This document shows positions 9,998-55,700 of a DNA stretch of 64,000 nucleotides, in pieces. The stretch's first letter is position 1. Every line of letters begins with the position of its first letter. Source of the stretch: Devosia sp. A16 (GTDB taxonomy: Bacteria; Pseudomonadota; Alphaproteobacteria; Rhizobiales; Devosiaceae); assembly GCF_001402915.1 (NCBI RefSeq), contig NZ_CP012945.1, positions 4,751,501 through 4,815,500 on the forward strand, read 5' to 3'. A program made the position numbers and the translations under genes. Under the pieces are notes generated by a model. That model saw only the letters and a program-made list of their open reading frames with translations. It was not told where the DNA came from and made no database searches.

Positions 9998-11031
9998 GTT
10001 AGACTCACAAACGAAGTGCAACAGCCTGCTAAGGTCATGTTGCAATGGGAACCTATTATGAGCAGCTCTCGCTGGACGAGAGAAGTGCGATTGCCTGTCT
10101 TCGAGCAGAGGGGCATTCGCTCGGGAAAATCGCTACGCGTTTGGATCGCCCGGCATCGACGATCAGTCGGGAGCTGAATCGCAACAGCGGTGTGCAAGTG
10201 GGCTACAAGCCGGCCTATGCCGACGAGCAGGCCCGGGCGCGGCGCTGGCGGGGCAGCCGGCTGGCGCGTCAGCCGGTCCTACGCCAGTTCGTGCTGGACC
10301 GCCTTGCAATGGGATGGTCGCCCGAACAGATCTCAGGACGGCTGACGCAGGGCAACTCTAGCATGCGCATCAGCCATGAGAGCATCTATCGTTTCATCTA
10401 TGCCCAGATCCGGCGCACCAACCGCTACGAGTGGCGCCACTATCTGCCGCAAGCCAAGAGCAAGCGTGGCTGGCGCCGCCGGCCGCACCGCCCCATGGAG
10501 CATATCAAGGACCGCGTCTCGATCGATTGCCGGCCGGCGCACGTCAACAACCGTCGTCAGTGCGGGCACTGGGAGGCCGACCTGCTGCATCCGCGCAAAT
10601 CCGGCGCCGCCATCCTGGTGGTTCAGGAGCGCAGCACCCGCTTCATCCTGCTCGCCAAGCAGCCAAGCAAGCATGCCCAGCTCGTCGTCGACCGCATCAA
10701 GTGCTGGTTCAGTGCCCTGCCGCCGCAAATGCGCCGCTCCCTCACCCAGGACAACGGCACCGAGTTCTTCGAGCATCATCAGCTCAACCCGGGCGGCATC
10801 GATACCTACTTCTGCGATCCCCATAGTCCCTGGCAGAAGGGCGGCGTCGAAAACGCCAATGGCCGGTTGCGCCGGTACATCCCGCGCGGAACCGATCCCG
10901 GCAGCTTCTCTGACGAGCACCTGCAGGAACTCGCCAACGACCTCAACAATACGCCACGCAAATGCCTCGGCTTCAAAACCCCAGCCGAGGTCTTCTCAAA
11001 ACGCCTGTTGCACTTGAAATGTGAATCCACC
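9998..11031 (+). mobile_element. IS30-family insertion sequence, 1034 bp
   Basis: The ends are imperfect inverted repeats of 27 bases (9998-10024 and 11005-11031; 20 of 27 match, with the inner 11 bases AAGTGCAACAG identical). They are flanked by a direct repeat TCC at 9995-9997 and 11032-11034. One transposase gene fills the element. Both the size and the 3-base duplication suit IS30. The element lies inside a palindromic intergenic repeat and so has not broken a gene. Confidence 0.93.
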
Positions 11032-11052
11032 TCCCAGCTTTCGCTGGGATGA
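10045..11052 (+). CDS. IS30-family transposase, stop codon supplied by target DNA
   Basis: The 335-residue protein starts MGTYYEQLSLDERSAIACLR and has an N-terminal helix-turn-helix (SLGKIATRLDRPASTISREL). An integrase-type core follows with the DDE triad visible as the D of HWEADLLH, the D of LTQDNGTEF, and the E of GGVENANGRLRR. It appears intact. The frame has no stop before the right inverted repeat. It reads through the repeat (LLHLKCEST) and ends at the TGA 11050-11052 in the flanking palindrome, so the last seven residues (SQLSLG plus the junction codon) come from target sequence. Confidence 0.95.
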   Translation: MGTYYEQLSLDERSAIACLRAEGHSLGKIATRLDRPASTISRELNRNSGVQVGYKPAYADEQARARRWRGSRLARQPVLRQFVLDRLAMGWSPEQISGRLTQGNSSMRISHESIYRFIYAQIRRTNRYEWRHYLPQAKSKRGWRRRPHRPMEHIKDRVSIDCRPAHVNNRRQCGHWEADLLHPRKSGAAILVVQERSTRFILLAKQPSKHAQLVVDRIKCWFSALPPQMRRSLTQDNGTEFFEHHQLNPGGIDTYFCDPHSPWQKGGVENANGRLRRYIPRGTDPGSFSDEHLQELANDLNNTPRKCLGFKTPAEVFSKRLLHLKCESTSQLSLG

Positions 11053-41435: not shown

Positions 41436-42635
41436 GTGAAGTGGCGTCCCGGAGTTCTGGCGGTGCGTGCGAAATCGACCGGCATTCGGCCGGCCTCCAA
41501 GGTGTTCGGGGCGCCCCCGCCCAAGGCGATACGAGAGCCCGGCATCCGCCCCGGTCTGTTCTACTCCGCATTCGCCGCGCTCCTCGGCACCAATATCCTG
41601 ACCCTCGTCGGCTTCCTGATGGCCCCAGACATTGCCGCCCTGCTGAACGGGCAGAACGATGTGGTCGTCTCCGCCTACGAGGACCGCATCGCCCAGTTGC
41701 GCGTCGAAGTGGATCGCCTGCATTCCCGACAGTTCGCCCAGGCCGGCGACATCAACCTGCAGCTGCAGGAGTTGAGCCAGCAGCAGGAAGTGCTGCTCGA
41801 GCAGCACCAATTGGTCAAACAGCTGGCAGCCAAGGCGGCCGAGCTTGGGATCGAAACCGCCGCCGCCGACTCGACCCGGGACGATGACGCGGCGCCGGTT
41901 GCCGATATCGCGCCGGTCGCCGCCACCGGCGACCTGGCTGAGGTCAGCGCCTCGATGACCCGAATGATGGACGAGAGCCGCATGGCGCTTGCCGCGCTGT
42001 CCGTCTCCGCCACCGAATCGACCGACACCATCCTCGACGTGCTCGACGGTCTCGGCATCAAACCGAGCATGCCCGACGGACTGACCGATGCCGTTGGCGG
42101 GCCCTATCAGCCACCGGTCGAGGGCAGCGACGGCAGCGGCATCGTCGACGATGCCAACGACGTCTACCTCGCGCTGGCGCGCTTCAAGGCGGCGCGCGGC
42201 GCGATTGACCTCGCCCCCATCCACAAGCCGATGGATTCGCTGAGCCGCATCAGCTCGACTTTCGGCAACCGCAAGGACCCGTTCACCGGCGGACGGGCCT
42301 TCCATGCCGGCCTCGATTTCCCGGCGCCCAAAGGCACCACGGTGCTGAGCGCGGGCTATGGCAAGGTGACTTTCGTGGGTGAGAAATCCGGCTACGGCAA
42401 CCTGGTCGAGATCACCCACCTCACCGGCCTCGTCACCCGCTACGGCCACCTCAGCGCCGTCCTCGTCAAGCAGGGACAGGTGGTCAATACCGGCACGCCA
42501 ATCGCCAAGGTTGGCTCCACCGGGCGCTCCACCGGGCCGCACCTGCATTTCGAGGTGCGCCGCAAGGACGTCGCGGTCGACCCCGGCAAGTATCTGGCAG
42601 CCGGCAAGCGCCTGGCCCGCTTCCTCGGCGCCTAG
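41436..42635 (+). CDS. M23 family metallopeptidase with coiled coil (399 aa)
   Basis: The start is a GTG at 41436. A membrane segment lies near residues 43-65 (FAALLGTNILTLVGFLMAP). A coiled coil follows (about 80-135, DINLQLQELSQQQEVLLEQH), then a disordered acidic stretch, and a LytM domain at 250-395. Zinc ligands are in HAGLDF and GRSTGPHLHFEV; FGNRKDPFTGG and YGNLVEITH also fit. It likely cuts peptidoglycan crosslinks or activates an amidase at division. Together the layout (N-in membrane anchor, periplasmic coiled coil, C-terminal peptidase) is that of EnvC/MepM-like proteins. Confidence 0.92.
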   Translation: MKWRPGVLAVRAKSTGIRPASKVFGAPPPKAIREPGIRPGLFYSAFAALLGTNILTLVGFLMAPDIAALLNGQNDVVVSAYEDRIAQLRVEVDRLHSRQFAQAGDINLQLQELSQQQEVLLEQHQLVKQLAAKAAELGIETAAADSTRDDDAAPVADIAPVAATGDLAEVSASMTRMMDESRMALAALSVSATESTDTILDVLDGLGIKPSMPDGLTDAVGGPYQPPVEGSDGSGIVDDANDVYLALARFKAARGAIDLAPIHKPMDSLSRISSTFGNRKDPFTGGRAFHAGLDFPAPKGTTVLSAGYGKVTFVGEKSGYGNLVEITHLTGLVTRYGHLSAVLVKQGQVVNTGTPIAKVGSTGRSTGPHLHFEVRRKDVAVDPGKYLAAGKRLARFLGA

Positions 42636-42740
42636 TCGAGTGCACCGCCGCAACGCCCCCGGCAAATCAGCCATGCATTCGCGCAAGATCAGTTGGTTGC
42701 TCTGGTTTTTCGGCGGGGACGGGTTTAGGTTCCCGCCACA

Positions 42741-45700
42741 ATGCTGATGACCTCAGACATTCCGACAATGCTGCGGCTGCACCGGGCGATGTTTCTCGCC
42801 CGCGAGATCGACCGCGTAGAACAAGACCTGGTCAAGCAGGGGCTTGCGCATTTCCATGTTTCCGGCGCCGGCCACGAGTCGACCGCTCTGATCGCCGACT
42901 ATCTCGGCGAGCAGGACTGGCTGCACCTGCACTATCGCGACAAGGCGCTGCTCTTGGCGCGCGGCTTGCCACTGGTCGAATTCTTCCGCAGCCTGCTTGC
43001 TACCGGCCCCTCGCACTCTGCCGGCAGGCAGATGAGCGCTCATTATTCTGCCCGTGAGCTGAATGTCGCATCGATGGTCGGCCCGGTCGGCAACAACGCG
43101 CTGCATGCCGTCGGCAATGCCCAGGCGGTGAAGTTCCACCCCGATTCTCCGGTGGTGATCTGCTGCGTCGGCGATGGCACCACCCAGCAGGGCGAGTTCC
43201 TCGAGGCGGTCGGCGAAGCCGTTCGCACCGGCGCGCCGGTGATCTTCGTCATCCAGAACAACAACTGGGCGATCTCCACCAAGACCCCTGGGCAGACCTT
43301 CTTCGACCTGCCGACCGGCCCGGCTGACAGCTTCCTCGGCCTGCCCATCCGTCGCGTCGACGGTGTCGACCTCGCAGCAACCCGTGCCGCCTTCGAGGCG
43401 GCCGTGACCCAGACCCGCGCCACTCGCGGCCCGTCGTTGCTGCTGATGGAGCTGGAACGGCTGTCGGACCACACCAATGCCGACGACCAGGCGCTCTACC
43501 GTACCGCCGATGAGCTGAAGTCCGGCAGGAGCCGCGATCCGCTGGAAGCCATCCGCCAGTCGCTGCGCGAGTCGCAGATGGGCGACCAGGCGCTCGCCCA
43601 GCTCGAAACCAGCCTCATCGCCGAGGTGGCAGCTGCCGCCGTCGAGGCGCGCGGCGAAGCCGTGCCCCAGACCGCCGGCGAGGCCAAGGCCCCCTACTCG
43701 GCCGAGTTCGCCCACGCCAGGGAGTATCGCGGCGACGCCAAGGCGCCGAACCTGACCATGCGCGAAGCGCTCAACCGGGTGCTGCGCGACCAGTTGCAGG
43801 CCAACCGCCAAGTGCAGCTGCTCGGCCAGGATATCGAGGATCCCAAGGGCGACGTGTTCGGCGTCACCAAGGGCCTGTCGACGGCCTTCCCCGGCCGGGT
43901 CCGTAACGCACCGCTATCGGAGTCGACCATCGTCGGCACCTCGATCGGCCGCGCGCTGACCGGTCAGCGGCCGGTGGCCTTCATCCAGTTCGCCGACTTC
44001 CTGCCGCTCGGCTTCAACCAGATCATTTCCGAGCTCGGCTCGATGTACTGGCGCACCGACGGCAGCTGGCAGGCGCCGGTGATCCTGATGGTCAGCTGCG
44101 GCGGCTACAAGGCCGGCCTCGGCCCGTTCCACGCCCAGACGCTCGAATCGATCCTGGCGCACGTGCCGGGCATCGACGTGGTGATGCCCTCGAGCGCCGG
44201 CGACGCTGCCGGCCTGCTCAATGCTGCCTTCGAGAGCAAGCGGCCGACGGTGTTTCTCTACCCCAAGAGCGCCCTCAACCTTTCCGACCGGCGCACCTCG
44301 GACGATACGGCGAAGCAGTTCGTGGTCCCCGGCAGGGCGCGCACGGTGCGCCAGGGGAACGACCTGACGCTGGTGACCTGGGGCAACCCGCTCACCCAGT
44401 CGCTGCTCGCCGCCGAGACGCTGTCCGGCGCCGGAGCCGAGCTCGAGGTCATCGACCTCCGCTCCATCTCCCCCTGGGACGAAGACGCGGTCCTGCGCTC
44501 CGTGCGCCGCACCCGGCGCCTGCTGGTCGTGCACGAGGACAACCACACTGCCGGCTTTGGCGCCGAGGTCATGGCGACGGTGATGGAGAAGGCCGGCATC
44601 CCGGTCAGCGCCAGGCGCGTCACTCGCGACGACATCCACGTGCCGTTCCAGTTCGAGCGCCAGATCGACGCCCTGCCTTCCTATCGCCGGATCATGGAGG
44701 CGGCCGCCGCGCTACTCGAGTTCGATCTCGAATGGGAGGCGCCCAAGGCCGATGCCGGCCCGGCCGCGATCACCGCCATCGGCTCCGGTCCGGCCGACGA
44801 CGAAGTCGAGGTCGTCGAGCTGCTGGTGAAGCCGGGGGACATGATCAAGACCGGCGACCTGGTCGCTGTGGTCGAGGCGACGAAGGCGGCGGTAGACGTC
44901 CAGGCTACGGTCACCGGCAAGGTGCTGTCGATCCCGGTCGAGCCGCGGCAAAAAATCGCCGTCGGCGCACCGCTGATGTTCGTCGAGGCCGATGCTAGGG
45001 TGGCCCGCCAGCAGGCCACCGTGACTGCCGAACGGATCGACAAGGCCATCCTGAAGCGCCGCGGTGCGCCGCAGCCGGCGCCCGTCACCATCGGGCGCGC
45101 CGAGGTGCCGGTCGGTGTCGCCGGCATTGCCGGGGTGACCGGCGGGCGCAAGGTGCACAACGCCGACCTCAAGGGCAACTGGCAGACCCGCGACGCCGGC
45201 GACATCGTCAAGCTTACCGGCATCGAGAGCCGGCGCTGGGTGCAGCCGGGCGAGACGGTGTTCTCGCTCGCCGTATCGGCCACCCAGAAATTGCTCTATG
45301 AGCAGCGGCTCGACATCAACGACATCGACCTGGTAATTGCCGCCACCGGCACGCCCGACGTCATCACTCCGTCGCTCGCCTGCCGCGTGGCCGACGCGGT
45401 CAGCACGGCCGGGCGGGCCAGCCTGCCCGCCTACGACATCAATGCCGCCTGCTCCGGCTACCTCTACGCCCTGGCCCAGGCGCGCGACTACGTCACCAAC
45501 AACCCCGAGGCTCGGGTATTGGTGGTGACCTCGGAAGTGCTCTCGCCGCTGCTCGACCAGAACGACTTCAACACCGCGGTGCTGTTCGCGGACGCGGCCA
45601 CCGCATCGCTCGTCCAGGGCCTCGGCCACGACCAGCCGACGCTGTTCACCTTTGCCCAGCCGACCATCGCCGGGGCGCCGGAATCGGGCGAGTTGCTGAG

Positions 45701-46064
45701 CGTGCCGCGCGCCGGCGAAGGCTATATCAAGATGAACGGTCGCGAGGTATTCGCCGACGCGGTTCGCGCCATGTCGGCAACGCTCACCTCTGCCTGTGCC
45801 GCCGAAGGCATCAGCATGGACGATATCGACCTGATGGTGCCGCACCAGGCCAACCAGCGCATCATCGACGCCATTGCACGCCGCTCGGGACGCCCGGCCC
45901 ACTCGATCATCCGCAACCTCGGCAATACCAGTTCCTCGACCATACCGCTGGCGCTGATCGATGCCCTGCCGACCACCAAGCCGGGCGACCGGCTCGGCCT
46001 CGTGGCCTTTGGCGGCGGCATCACCTATGCGGCGGCGATCGCAACGGTGGGACCGGGACGTTAG
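42741..46064 (+). CDS. Four-domain fusion: 2-oxoacid dehydrogenase E1-alpha, E1-beta, lipoyl domain, ketoacyl-ACP synthase III
   Basis: The 1107-residue protein opens with an E1-alpha region (about 1-320) with the thiamine-diphosphate motif GDGTTQQGEFLEAVGEA at 144 and NNW around 174. An E1-beta region follows (about 335-665) with LTMREALNRVLRDQLQANRQ, LSESTIVGTSIGRALTGQRP and HEDNHTAGFGAEV. A lipoyl-like domain lies at about 685-750, with the acceptor Lys715 in VVEATKAAVD. A FabH-like synthase fills about 785-1107 with Cys904 (DINAACSGYLYA), His1035 (PHQANQR) and Asn1062 (GNTSSSTIPLAL). No E2 acyltransferase core is present. I infer that a 2-oxoacid is decarboxylated, moved to lipoate and condensed with malonyl-ACP. 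The frame is unbroken. Confidence 0.93.
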   Translation: MLMTSDIPTMLRLHRAMFLAREIDRVEQDLVKQGLAHFHVSGAGHESTALIADYLGEQDWLHLHYRDKALLLARGLPLVEFFRSLLATGPSHSAGRQMSAHYSARELNVASMVGPVGNNALHAVGNAQAVKFHPDSPVVICCVGDGTTQQGEFLEAVGEAVRTGAPVIFVIQNNNWAISTKTPGQTFFDLPTGPADSFLGLPIRRVDGVDLAATRAAFEAAVTQTRATRGPSLLLMELERLSDHTNADDQALYRTADELKSGRSRDPLEAIRQSLRESQMGDQALAQLETSLIAEVAAAAVEARGEAVPQTAGEAKAPYSAEFAHAREYRGDAKAPNLTMREALNRVLRDQLQANRQVQLLGQDIEDPKGDVFGVTKGLSTAFPGRVRNAPLSESTIVGTSIGRALTGQRPVAFIQFADFLPLGFNQIISELGSMYWRTDGSWQAPVILMVSCGGYKAGLGPFHAQTLESILAHVPGIDVVMPSSAGDAAGLLNAAFESKRPTVFLYPKSALNLSDRRTSDDTAKQFVVPGRARTVRQGNDLTLVTWGNPLTQSLLAAETLSGAGAELEVIDLRSISPWDEDAVLRSVRRTRRLLVVHEDNHTAGFGAEVMATVMEKAGIPVSARRVTRDDIHVPFQFERQIDALPSYRRIMEAAAALLEFDLEWEAPKADAGPAAITAIGSGPADDEVEVVELLVKPGDMIKTGDLVAVVEATKAAVDVQATVTGKVLSIPVEPRQKIAVGAPLMFVEADARVARQQATVTAERIDKAILKRRGAPQPAPVTIGRAEVPVGVAGIAGVTGGRKVHNADLKGNWQTRDAGDIVKLTGIESRRWVQPGETVFSLAVSATQKLLYEQRLDINDIDLVIAATGTPDVITPSLACRVADAVSTAGRASLPAYDINAACSGYLYALAQARDYVTNNPEARVLVVTSEVLSPLLDQNDFNTAVLFADAATASLVQGLGHDQPTLFTFAQPTIAGAPESGELLSVPRAGEGYIKMNGREVFADAVRAMSATLTSACAAEGISMDDIDLMVPHQANQRIIDAIARRSGRPAHSIIRNLGNTSSSTIPLALIDALPTTKPGDRLGLVAFGGGITYAAAIATVGPGR

Positions 46065-47146
46065 CTTGGGGTGAAAGCCCCCCGCAGCAGGCCCACCAGT
46101 TCCGCCTGCCGGTGCATTCCGGTCTTGTCGAAAACCGCCTGCACCTGATTTCGTACCGTCGCCACGCTGGCTCCGGTCGTGGTGGCGATCTGCGCGATCG
46201 TCATGCCGCTGCCCAACGCGCGGGCAACGCGGGCCTCCGCCGGGCTGAGGTCGAACAGCCCTTGGATCACCGCCACGTCGGGCAGCTCACGAGGCCCCAC
46301 CGGGGTCATCAGGAGGATCGCCGCCGCACCGGTGAACACCTCTCGCGCCGATGCCCTGATCGGTAGCAGATGGGCCACCATTGGGACGCCACCTTCAGCG
46401 GCCGGTATCGGAATCGACCGCGCCAGCCCTTGATGCAGGCCCGCTTCTGTCGCCTGTAGGGCGGCAACAAGTATCCTGTCGGCGCCCGTGTTGGTGAAGC
46501 CCAGCCGATCGGGACGCGACAGCACTACCGCTGGATTCAGGCGTTCTAGCAGGCTGTTGGTAGCAATCGCTGCGCCACGCGCCCCCAGCACCGCAGCGGG
46601 GAGGCCTACCATCTCCATGGCCGAGACAGTGCCCTGCGCCCGAGCAAAAGCAATCCGCGCCGACATCAGAGCCGCCCGCGCCAGATGCGGGCGCAACAAG
46701 TCGAGCCGCTCCACCACGGCCCTCTCCACCGGCCCATCCTCAAGGTGCCTTTCGCCGTGAAAGATGAGGAGGTCTCCAGTGGGCACCTTGACGCCGGTCG
46801 CGACGCCCCAGCCATAACCGCGAGGCACGAAATACTCCCGCCGGATCGGATCGGCCTCCCATTCCTCGCGGGTAAACACATCGAGATCGGTGACGAAGCC
46901 AGGGTGGTCATAAGCCAGCAGCCGGGCCGTGCGATCGTCACGAGCGGGATAACCGGCGTCGAAGTATCCCTTCGACATCTCGTAGAGCCCAGCCGACGAC
47001 GTCCAATGCACCGCCTGCTCCCGCACCGCGAACAGCACGGTACCACTCACTTGGCCCACGCCGGCAAGCTCTTCGAGCACCACCGGCCATAGCTCGGGAA
47101 CGGCCCCGGCCTCGTAGATTCTGTCGATGAGATCATCGTCCGCCAT
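46061..47146 (-). CDS. LuxR-type transcriptional regulator (361 aa)
   Basis: I start at ATG 47146 (MADDDLIDRIYEAGAVPELW) after AGGAAG; an upstream frame has no better site. The C-terminal LuxR helix-turn-helix (about 290-350) reads LSPAEARVARALGSGMTIAQ, then an IATTTGASVATVRNQVQ recognition helix. The N-terminal 280 residues form an unknown sensor without obvious PAS motifs. It converges on the fusion gene, the two stops overlapping by four bases. Two GTTAC palindromes sit just upstream of its start and may be operators. It is a fair candidate to control the fusion gene, though nothing proves it. Confidence 0.88.
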   Translation of the reverse strand: MADDDLIDRIYEAGAVPELWPVVLEELAGVGQVSGTVLFAVREQAVHWTSSAGLYEMSKGYFDAGYPARDDRTARLLAYDHPGFVTDLDVFTREEWEADPIRREYFVPRGYGWGVATGVKVPTGDLLIFHGERHLEDGPVERAVVERLDLLRPHLARAALMSARIAFARAQGTVSAMEMVGLPAAVLGARGAAIATNSLLERLNPAVVLSRPDRLGFTNTGADRILVAALQATEAGLHQGLARSIPIPAAEGGVPMVAHLLPIRASAREVFTGAAAILLMTPVGPRELPDVAVIQGLFDLSPAEARVARALGSGMTIAQIATTTGASVATVRNQVQAVFDKTGMHRQAELVGLLRGAFTPS

Positions 47147-53509: not shown

Positions 53510-53935
53510 ATGCGCTTTATGATCATCGTCAAAGCCACCCCCGAAAGCGAAGCCGGCATCATGCCGCCGCCCGAAGCCTTCGAAGCGATGGGCCGCTTCA
53601 ACGAGGCGCTGATCAACGCCGGTGTGCTGCTGGCGGCAGAGGGTCTGCATCCCTCGAGCCAGGGCAGCCGCGTCACCTCCGAGGCGGGCCGCCTGGTGGT
53701 CCGGGATGGCCCGTTCGCCGAGAGCAAGGAGCTGATCGCCGGCTTCTGGGTGATCAGCGCCAAATCGCGGGACGAAGCGCTGGAATGGGTAAAACGCATT
53801 CCCTTTGCCGACGGCGAGACCATCGAGCTCAGGCGTGTATTCGAGGCAGCCGATTTCGCCGAAGTCGTCCCCGCCGAGGCGGTTGCCAAGGAGCAGGCGT
53901 GGCGCGACGCCAACCAGAAGCCGATTACCAACTGA
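53510..53935 (+). CDS. DGPF/YCII-like protein 1 (141 aa)
   Basis: The start is ATG 53510 after AAGGAGAAC. The YCII-related fold is seen with MRFMIIVKATPESEAGIMPP, the DGPF motif in VRDGPFAESKELIAGFW, and RRVFEAADF. Genes of this family accompany ECF42-like sigma factors; here a second copy (7 residues upstream in layout) and the sigma gene follow. Ten bases separate it from the next. The function is unknown. Confidence 0.88.
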   Translation: MRFMIIVKATPESEAGIMPPPEAFEAMGRFNEALINAGVLLAAEGLHPSSQGSRVTSEAGRLVVRDGPFAESKELIAGFWVISAKSRDEALEWVKRIPFADGETIELRRVFEAADFAEVVPAEAVAKEQAWRDANQKPITN

Positions 53936-53945
53936 GGAAAGCCAC

Positions 53946-54371
53946 ATGAAATTCATGATCATCCGCAAGGCGGACGCCGAGACCGAGGCCGGTGTGATGC
54001 CAGGCGCAGACCTCATCACCCAGATGACCCAGTTCCACGAGGATGCAGCAAAGCTCGGCATCGTCATTGCCGGCTCCGGTCTGATGCCCAGTTCGCGCGG
54101 CGCCAAGGTGAAGTTCAGCAACGGCAACCCCACGGTGATCGATGGTCCGTTCGCCGAAGCCAAGGAACTGATCGCCGGCTACACCTTGATCGAGGTGCCC
54201 TCGCGCGAGGCGGCTATCGAATGGGTCAAGACCTGGCCTCCCCTCGATGGTCACGGCAATGTGGAGATCGAGATCCGCCAGCTCTTCACCGAGGAGGATT
54301 TCGGCGAGGCCTATACCGAGGCCATGGCGGGCCGGGAGGTCGCCCGCACGGCGCTCGGCACGCCTCGGTAG
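53946..54371 (+). CDS. DGPF/YCII-like protein 2 (141 aa)
   Basis: A paralogue of the preceding gene: MKFMIIRKADAETEAGVMPG, then VIDGPFAEAKELIAGYTLIE, and EIEIRQLFTEEDF. It is the same length (141 residues) and keeps the DGPF core but differs at the ends. It precedes the ECF42-like sigma factor by 66 bases, so the three form a likely operon. Such pairs may sense or bind small molecules for the sigma factor; this is inference from the family. Confidence 0.9.
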   Translation: MKFMIIRKADAETEAGVMPGADLITQMTQFHEDAAKLGIVIAGSGLMPSSRGAKVKFSNGNPTVIDGPFAEAKELIAGYTLIEVPSREAAIEWVKTWPPLDGHGNVEIEIRQLFTEEDFGEAYTEAMAGREVARTALGTPR

Positions 54372-54437
54372 GCGCCTTGCTCCTGCCCGGCATCTGCAGC
54401 TTGCTGCGGCGGATCGGATTTGATCTGATCCGCTGCC

Positions 54438-55700
54438 ATGACCCAGAGAGAAACCCATCGCGCCATCGAAGCGGTGTTCCGCATCGAGCAGGCCAAGCTC
54501 ATCGCCGGCCTGACCCGAATCGTGCGCGACGTCGGCCTCGCCGAGGAACTGGCGCAGGATTCGTTGATCGTCGCCCTCAACCACTGGCCGGAAAGCGGCG
54601 TGCCGCGCAATCCGGGCGCCTGGCTCATGCAGACCGCTAAGCGCCGCGCCATCGACTATTTCCGGCGCAACAAGATGGCGGCGCGCAAGCTCGACGAGCT
54701 GGGCTATGACCTGCGCGAAATCGAATCCACCGCGCCCGACCTCGATACCCCGCTGGATGACGATGTTGGCGACGACCTCCTGAAGCTGATCTTCACCTCC
54801 TGCCACCCGGTGCTGTCTGCGGAGGCGCGTGTCGCGCTGACGCTGCGCCTGCTCGGCGGACTCACCACCGACGAAATCGCCCGGGCGTTCCTTGCCGCCG
54901 AGCCGACCATTGCCCAGCGCATCGTGCGCGCCAAGAAGAGCCTCGCCGAGGCCGGCATGCCGTTCGAGGTTCCCCGCGCCGAGGAGCGCGCCGCGCGCAT
55001 GGCTTCGGTGCTCGAGGTGCTCTATCTGATCTTCAACGAAGGCTACTCGGCCACCGCCGGCGACGACTGGACCCGTCCGCAGCTCTGCGAGGAAGCAATG
55101 CGGCTGGGCCGGATTCTTGCTGGCCTCGCCCCCGCGGATGCCGAGGTGCATGGGCTGGTGGCGCTGATGGAAATCCAGGCGTCGCGGCTGCGCGCCCGCA
55201 CCGGCGCCAACGGCGAGCCGGTGCTGCTGCTCGAACAGAACCGCGCCTTGTGGGACCAGATGCTGATCCGCCGCGGCCTTGCGGCCCTGCAAAAGGCCGA
55301 GAGCCTTACAGGCGCCGGCCCCTATGTACTGCAGGCGGCCATCGCCGCGTGCCATGCCCGGGCCCGGCGAGCCGACGAGACCGACTGGCGGCGCATCTCG
55401 GCGCTCTACGATATGCTGGCGGAGCTGACGCCCAGCCCGGTGGTCGAACTCAACCGCGCCGTCGCCCACAGCATGGCCTTCGGCGCCGGCGCCGGCCTCG
55501 CCATCCTCGACCCCATCGCCGACGATCCGGCGCTGCGCAACTACCACCTGCTGCCCAGCGTGCGCGGCGATTTCCTCGTGAAGCTCGGCCGGCTGGCCGA
55601 GGCCCGCGTCGAGTTCGAGCGCGCCGCCGGACTGACCCGCAACGAGCGCGAACGCGTGCTGCTGCTCGATCGAGCCGCGGCCTGCCAGCCCGCAGCCTGA
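54438..55700 (+). CDS. ECF42-like RNA polymerase sigma factor (420 aa)
   Basis: It has sigma region 2 (about 10-85; GLAEELAQDSLIVALNHWPE) and region 4 (about 110-170; GLTTDEIARAFLAAEPTIAQ, RIVRAKKSL). A long C-terminal extension with the DUF6596/TPR-like pattern (about 175-415, EVLYLIFNEGYSATAGDDW) follows. The size and the link with DGPF proteins match group ECF42, whose extension is needed for activity and which has no classical anti-sigma factor. It likely reads its own operon. No anti-sigma gene lies near. Confidence 0.93.
   Translation: MTQRETHRAIEAVFRIEQAKLIAGLTRIVRDVGLAEELAQDSLIVALNHWPESGVPRNPGAWLMQTAKRRAIDYFRRNKMAARKLDELGYDLREIESTAPDLDTPLDDDVGDDLLKLIFTSCHPVLSAEARVALTLRLLGGLTTDEIARAFLAAEPTIAQRIVRAKKSLAEAGMPFEVPRAEERAARMASVLEVLYLIFNEGYSATAGDDWTRPQLCEEAMRLGRILAGLAPADAEVHGLVALMEIQASRLRARTGANGEPVLLLEQNRALWDQMLIRRGLAALQKAESLTGAGPYVLQAAIAACHARARRADETDWRRISALYDMLAELTPSPVVELNRAVAHSMAFGAGAGLAILDPIADDPALRNYHLLPSVRGDFLVKLGRLAEARVEFERAAGLTRNERERVLLLDRAAACQPAA

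Follow-up and report, generated by a model that had tools for sequence, protein, structure and literature searches.

A single-chain E1-lipoyl-ketoacyl synthase III fusion from Devosia, a candidate coenzyme A-independent starter-unit synthase

Architecture and spread of the fusion

The window analysed here, a 64,000-nucleotide stretch of the Devosia sp. A16 genome (contig NZ_CP012945.1, positions 4,751,501 to 4,815,500), contains on its plus strand an open reading frame (42741..46064) that begins with ATG and encodes 1107 amino acids plus stop, with no internal stop codon. Pfam searches, in which all matches to the chain exceed the gathering cut-offs, divide the product into four domains, all read on the same strand: an E1-alpha (thiamine diphosphate-binding) domain at residues 15-307 (42783..43661; PF00676, E1_dh, 1.8e-44); an E1-beta domain (43752..44660) composed of Transket_pyr (338-513, 3.3e-25) and Transketolase_C (531-640, 1.8e-28); a lipoyl domain at residues 687-746 (44799..44978; PF00364, Biotin_lipoyl, 3e-10); and a FabH-like ketoacyl-acyl carrier protein synthase III (KAS III) at residues 792-1101 (45114..46043), recognized by ACP_syn_III (898-962, 3.5e-19) and ACP_syn_III_C (1019-1101, 2.5e-22). 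A TPP_enzyme_C match (1.3e-6) overlaps the E1 region, and neither the catalytic core of an E2 acyltransferase (PF00198) nor an E3 dehydrogenase gave a match within the chain. The first-pass annotation, made from the sequence without database searches, had described just such an unbroken frame of E1-alpha, E1-beta, lipoyl-like and KAS III parts lacking an E2 core and E3; the translation and profiles bear this description out, and place the lipoyl-like and C-terminal parts in the families it had named.

The residues expected of each activity are in place, and those singled out in the earlier annotation (the GDG motif, Lys715, Cys904, His1035 and Asn1062) all lie at the positions it gave. The E1 region carries both a thiamine diphosphate motif and the catalytic His and Glu, as judged from profiles and alignment (GDG 144-146, N174 and H244 in E1-alpha; E394 and H464 in E1-beta); the lipoyl domain holds its predicted acceptor Lys715 (codon 44883-44885) in the motif EATKA; and the KAS III half combines a thiolase-like fold, seen in profile, alignment and fold match, with Cys904 (codon 45450-45452), His1035 and Asn1062. 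In an alignment of 54 fusions (that of the window, six from an AT-rich genus and a further 47 selected among the 80 loci described below; 44-89% identical to the window protein), N174, H244, E394, H464, K715, C904, H1035 and N1062 are invariant, and D145 of the GDG motif is Asp in 50 sequences and Glu in four. The acceptor lysine lies in the motif E(A/T)(T/S/D)K(A/S/G) in the 15 fusion sequences inspected, and the lipoyl domain finds its best match in the E2 of a pyruvate dehydrogenase (PDH), a protein that has three lipoyl repeats (summed E-value 2.4e-16).

An AlphaFold2 model of the whole chain, calculated from the 54-sequence alignment, has a mean pLDDT of 90 and a pTM of 0.69. Its low-confidence stretch, residues 776-787 (45066..45101, plus strand; pLDDT below 50), lies between the lipoyl and KAS III domains and is probably a flexible linker. 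In a Foldseek search with the model, the highest-ranking structure is the beta subunit of the branched-chain 2-oxoacid dehydrogenase from Thermus thermophilus (TM 0.93 by target length); FabH comes next, and more E1-beta structures after it.

When GTDB genomes were scanned with two E1 patterns, 187 relatives emerged, and the best 80 of these underlie the figures given here. The 80 loci, many of them from metagenome-assembled genomes, are labelled as belonging to eight phyla and comprise 11 from Devosia and its kin, 24 from Rhizobium (four labelled only Rhizobiales bacterium), 17 from planctomycetes, 11 from spirochaetes, nine from verrucomicrobia, two each from lentisphaerae, cyanobacteria and betaproteobacteria, and one each from a sumerlaeote and an armatimonadote. 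The fusion is 77-96% identical to that of the window in eight other Devosia-group sequences and 44-58% identical in Rhizobium and other phyla. KAS III lies within the same gene at 78 of the 80 loci (76 flagged by script, together with L132 and L072), a count that includes two chains, L138 and L140, that leave their contig inside KAS III. Recurrence of the same chain in the Devosia group, in Rhizobium and in other phyla shows that the join is no product of chance or of assembly. The first-pass annotation had named separate halves with an intervening stop as grounds for refutation, but no such case was seen at the 80 loci; the sole split one, L072 (G077), comes from a draft assembly in which a 1-nt frameshift interrupts KAS III. 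The two remaining loci are L104, where a contig end cuts the gene, and L126 (L126:135-3356), a verrucomicrobial chain in which the same E1-lipoyl half is followed by an E2 acyltransferase core (PF00198) where KAS III otherwise stands.

Within individual taxa the distribution is uneven. Within the family, 13 of 121 genomes carry the fusion, all of them of the genus of the window and its own genome included (one copy cut by a contig end, one frameshifted); in the other genera of the family, matches end by residue 662, at E 1e-60. Neither the 249 genomes compared from the order nor the 385 from the class added a full-length fusion to the one in the genome of the window; among 398 of the phylum, one other genome (G695) has it too. 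Among 250 genomes of the order of G695, seven carry it, six of them from a single AT-rich genus. The fusion is apparently of single origin, and unexpectedly wide in its spread.

The fused KAS III and E1 compared with their relatives

In FabH, the adenine of coenzyme A (CoA) is stacked between Trp32 and Arg151 and bonded by Thr28, while Arg36 bonds the pantetheine, according to the description in PMC4606726. We compared these positions in 83 fused domains (that of the window, those of 76 of the 80 loci and six from the AT-rich genus; L072, L104, L138 and L126 were excluded) and in 23 stand-alone KAS III proteins, 19 FabH-like and four others, all from fusion-bearing genomes (L164 was dropped for want of a usable match). 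Trp32, Arg151 and Thr28 are found in none of the 83 fusions, as against 20, 21 and 18 of the 23 stand-alone proteins; among the 19 FabH-like members of the latter, Trp32 is present in 19 and Arg151 in 18. In the window fusion, D821 stands in place of Trp32 and F943 in place of Arg151. The catalytic Cys is present in 83/83 fusions and 22/23 stand-alone proteins, the His in 83/83 and 23/23, and the Asn in 82/83 and 23/23, the exception being L140, which ends at a contig edge; Arg249 is likewise present in 83/83 and 20/23. The CoA-head site is thus gone from the fused KAS III and the catalytic residues are retained, as would be expected of an enzyme served by a tethered lipoyl donor.

The fused domains also appear to share a history. 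In a tree, the 83 fused KAS III sequences form one clade relative to the 23 stand-alone proteins, a small sample (support 0.937). Pairwise distances between the E1 parts of the fusions correlate with those between their KAS III parts (r 0.80; rank correlation 0.48; 0/999 permutations).

The closest E1 proteins found are single-chain E1s encoded on Streptomyces plasmids, which are 40-44% identical to the window protein in both E1 halves, compared with 31-41% in E1-beta and 27-32% in E1-alpha for the other E1s examined; the nearest solved E1 is the branched-chain 2-oxoacid dehydrogenase of T. thermophilus (1um9). Eight Streptomyces records matched, and in all three clusters read the E1 gene lies directly upstream of a megasynthase whose N-terminus comprises a lipoyl domain, an E2-like 2-oxoacid_dh acyltransferase, an acyl carrier protein (ACP) and a ketoacyl synthase. 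These megasynthases (L165:11929-25890, also L166 and L167) apparently contain a lipoate-based starter loading module. One of the clusters, examined at greater length, has the look of a streptogramin cluster, to go by its annotation. PglB/PglC of pristinamycin I, as described in PMC7089894, were considered as counterparts of the Streptomyces E1 and set aside, since the group A half would fit better, to judge from this one cluster. Pristinamycin II begins from isobutyryl, according to PMC6963833. A branched acyl starter, as the first-pass annotation had suggested, is plausible because the nearest solved E1 is of the branched-chain type and the streptogramin-type relative suggests isobutyryl; by this analogy the substrate of the fusion is probably branched.

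Genomic surroundings

The genome of the window, a single contig of 5.03 Mb, holds further relatives of the parts of the fusion: a PDH-like locus with frames matching E1-alpha, E1-beta and lipoyl domains (4596982-4600188), a stand-alone FabH-like gene (L004), and L002 (G000:C1:3174835-3180111), an 804-residue single chain of E1-alpha, E1-beta and a lipoyl-like C-terminus. Each of the 19 fusion-bearing genomes checked (10 + 9) also has a separate FabH-like gene, which makes the fusion unlikely to be the housekeeping initiator; it probably has a special role. Lpd (E3) scored above cut-off in 12/12 genomes, where it is encoded apart from the fusion.

Upstream of the fusion lies a gene for an M23-type peptidoglycan peptidase (41463..42635, plus strand), the family scores of which fall below the cut-offs of the named models; it has no evident functional link to the fusion. 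A gene of similar size and sequence start precedes the fusion in 7/7 other Devosia loci read by eye. A convergent gene with a weak LuxR-type match (46061..47146, minus strand) overlaps the fusion stop codon, and such a gene occupies this place in 2/7 of the same loci, again by eye. Four window neighbours were tested against profiles (the peptidase, a peroxiredoxin, the gene with the weak LuxR-type match and one that matched nothing in NCBIfam), and none gave an E2 match or an ACP; with the remaining genes judged by their sequence starts, no biosynthetic cluster was recognized in the window. A promoter and terminator scan of the plus strand of 42400-46300 found nothing. Elsewhere in the window, 10045-11052 is, by its look, presumably an IS30-type transposase gene, and 53510-55700 encodes, side by side, a pair of small proteins related to each other, with a sigma-factor-like gene after them, an arrangement resembling a YCII pair with an ECF sigma factor.

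No neighbour is conserved across the fusions, the largest family being common to six of the 47 loci compared (contig ends truncate some of these), a pattern that fits a complete enzyme. Within lineages, a homologue of the ornithine-lipid hydroxylase OlsE lies in the 8-kb flanks of the fusion at 24/24 Rhizobium-group loci (NF052566, 537.6 bits against a cut-off of 475, at one locus), probably as one ancestral arrangement; the target of OlsE within ornithine lipids is the ornithine moiety, which it hydroxylates, as described in PMC3972451. In Xenococcus PCC 7305 (L125:5634-15677), an apparent operon that looks sphingolipid-like joins the fusion to an ACP, an SDR, a fatty acid hydroxylase, a serine-palmitoyltransferase/BioF-like protein with a GNAT protein, and an acyl-AMP ligase. 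Upstream of the fusion at a planctomycete locus (L098:3292-11351) are an AMP ligase, an ACP, an LPG-synthase-C protein and an E2-like acyltransferase that bears an H...NG motif; another locus (L120) has an AMP ligase-ACP downstream, and SDR genes lie near the fusion in three spirochaetes. These neighbours suggest that the products may be lipids or lipid-like compounds, possibly differing by lineage.

Proposed mechanism, alternatives and known systems

Taken together, the observed domains, catalytic residues, conservation of the fusion and loss of CoA-adenine contacts lead us to propose, on this sequence evidence, that the fusion is rather likely to be a self-contained, CoA-independent starter-unit synthase. 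We infer its chemical steps, from lipoylation and substrate through to product, as follows. E1-alpha/beta with thiamine diphosphate would decarboxylate a 2-oxo acid, most likely a branched-chain one, and reductively acylate lipoyl-Lys715. The lipoyl arm would then swing to the KAS III of the same chain, where thioester exchange would load the acyl group onto Cys904 instead of CoA. KAS III would join this acyl group with malonyl-ACP, releasing CO2 and yielding a 3-oxoacyl-ACP, and the dihydrolipoyl group would be reoxidized in trans by the cell's own E3 (Lpd). The handover from acyl-lipoyl arm to KAS III without CoA had been suggested in the first-pass annotation; it gains indirect support from the absence of the adenine-binding residues in all 83 fusions, which retain the triad and form one clade relative to the 23 stand-alone proteins compared, and, by analogy, from the E2 core that takes the place of KAS III in L126 and from the related E1 genes that stand before lipoyl-headed assembly lines. 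We give about an even chance to the broader idea that chain initiation with the acyl group carried on lipoate only, in one polypeptide, is widespread and serves special lipids in some lineages, as the olsE neighbour in Rhizobium and the sphingolipid-like Xenococcus operon would suggest. A literature search, covering mainly open-access papers and few subscription journals, found no description of the fusion, which we provisionally regard as undescribed so far.

Several observations weigh against this proposal. The chain scores 216 bits against the curated FabH model TIGR00747, below its cut-off of 292.1 (the broader NF006829 is passed, at 255.8 against 249). The pantetheine contact Arg36 is retained in 39/83 fusions (19/23 stand-alone proteins). 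Trp32 is wanting from three of the 23 stand-alone proteins (one of them a gap) and Arg151 from two, the mode of CoA binding may vary among other KAS III enzymes, and the loss of adenine contacts would be no proof that use of CoA is lost. Lys214, which we take to be an ACP contact, is present in 18/23 stand-alone proteins and absent from all 83 fusions, indicating that preservation of the ACP face is incomplete. Phe87 is replaced by Thr, Ser or Ala in every fusion and is present in 14/23 stand-alone proteins; as it also differs in the other nine, an argument from the pocket is weak. The E1-beta of L036 (41% identical) is as close to the window protein as are the Streptomyces proteins. Finally, the sequences compared are not independent, 24 of them coming from closely related Rhizobium-group loci, and the other 107 of the 187 relatives lie outside the comparison.

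The same evidence bears on four other explanations. The KAS III half might be an acyltransferase that passes the acyl group from lipoate to ACP or another acceptor, as the described KAS III-like acyltransferase ChlB3 (PMC9573744) and the E2-like H...NG domains, which stand beside lipoyl domain and ACP in three clusters of Streptomyces and adjoin an ACP gene at L098, would allow; we consider this unlikely, because the fusions have the complete Cys-His-Asn set expected of a decarboxylating condensing enzyme, and plain transfer would need no more than an E2-like domain. An ordinary acyl-CoA-using KAS III merely tethered to E1 and lipoyl domains, with an external E2 making acyl-CoA from the lipoyl arm, would agree with the additional E1-like and lipoyl-like frames in the genome and with the partial retention of Arg36. 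That arrangement seems improbable given the universal absence of Trp32, Arg151 and Thr28 from the fusions, and given that neither the four window neighbours tested nor any widely common neighbour supplies an E2, even though an E2-like gene does lie near the fusion at L098.

The remaining two concern the acyl source and its carrier. A transketolase-like E1 half acting on a ketose phosphate, as reported for QncN/QncL and NapB/NapD, would make the starter a glycolyl unit. The primary study of Qnc reportedly involves an acyl-lipoyl intermediate that is passed to ACP without CoA. The SclQ1-4/Qnc systems combine E1-like, lipoyl, E2-like and ACP components, and a glycolic unit derived from ketose phosphate has been proposed for them (PMC6335953). 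The closest solved E1 is instead a branched-chain 2-oxoacid dehydrogenase, and the closest relatives found lie in streptogramin-type clusters, pristinamycin II having an isobutyryl starter (PMC6963833), so that a ketose phosphate looks quite improbable here. We give very little credence to a lipoyl-like domain that is biotinylated or unmodified in a chain that does something else: biotin carriers do match the domain, at scores little worse than those of single lipoyl domains (transcarboxylase 9.9e-6, 1lab 6.1e-7), yet its motif is lipoyl-like in the 15 sequences inspected and unlike the MKM of biotin-type domains, its best match is the three-repeat E2, and it adjoins E1.

If the CoA-independent starter-unit synthase is real, it would tie keto-acid breakdown to chain initiation and bypass the acyl-CoA pool, with a KAS III specialized for a lipoyl donor and lipoate in the role that CoA has in KAS III priming; new lipids or metabolites would be predicted in Devosia, the Rhizobium tropici group, planctomycetes, verrucomicrobia and spirochaetes. 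A comparison of L126 with the rest suggests that a ketosynthase has taken over from the E2 core on the same E1-lipoyl chassis, which makes transfer from lipoyl to ketosynthase directly testable and useful for starter-unit engineering.

Each known system shares part of this design. With 2-oxo acid dehydrogenase complexes (T. thermophilus E1, 1um9), the fusion shares the E1-alpha/beta fold, catalytic residues, lipoyl arm and an expected need for E3; those complexes consist of several chains with an E2 core, whereas the fusion is one chain in which KAS III occupies the position of E2. One such branched-chain dehydrogenase, BkdABC of Photorhabdus, gives isovalerate-CoA, according to PMC3838401. 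FabH and other KAS III enzymes have the same fold and Cys-His-Asn triad, whereas the fusion carries its own acyl source and lacks the three CoA-head contacts. L002, from the same genome, is likewise a single chain, running from E1-alpha and E1-beta to a lipoyl-like C-terminus, but is 29% identical and has no KAS III. QncN/QncL, NapB/NapD and SclQ1-4 resemble the fusion in their E1-like enzyme, lipoyl domain and ACP-bound product, and differ, by their descriptions in the part of PMC6335953 drawn on here, in a ketose phosphate donor and an E2-like acyltransferase, with KAS III going unmentioned there. The fusion chain contains neither a Qnc-type E2-like acyltransferase nor an ACP, although an ACP is encoded nearby at L098 and L125. 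The streptogramin-type loading module shares the closely related E1 and a lipoyl domain heading an assembly line, but uses separate chains, in which the acyl group seemingly passes via an E2-like domain to ACP and then to a type I ketosynthase. By analogy, the fusion looks like a streptogramin/Qnc-like chassis in which KAS III replaces the E2 core.

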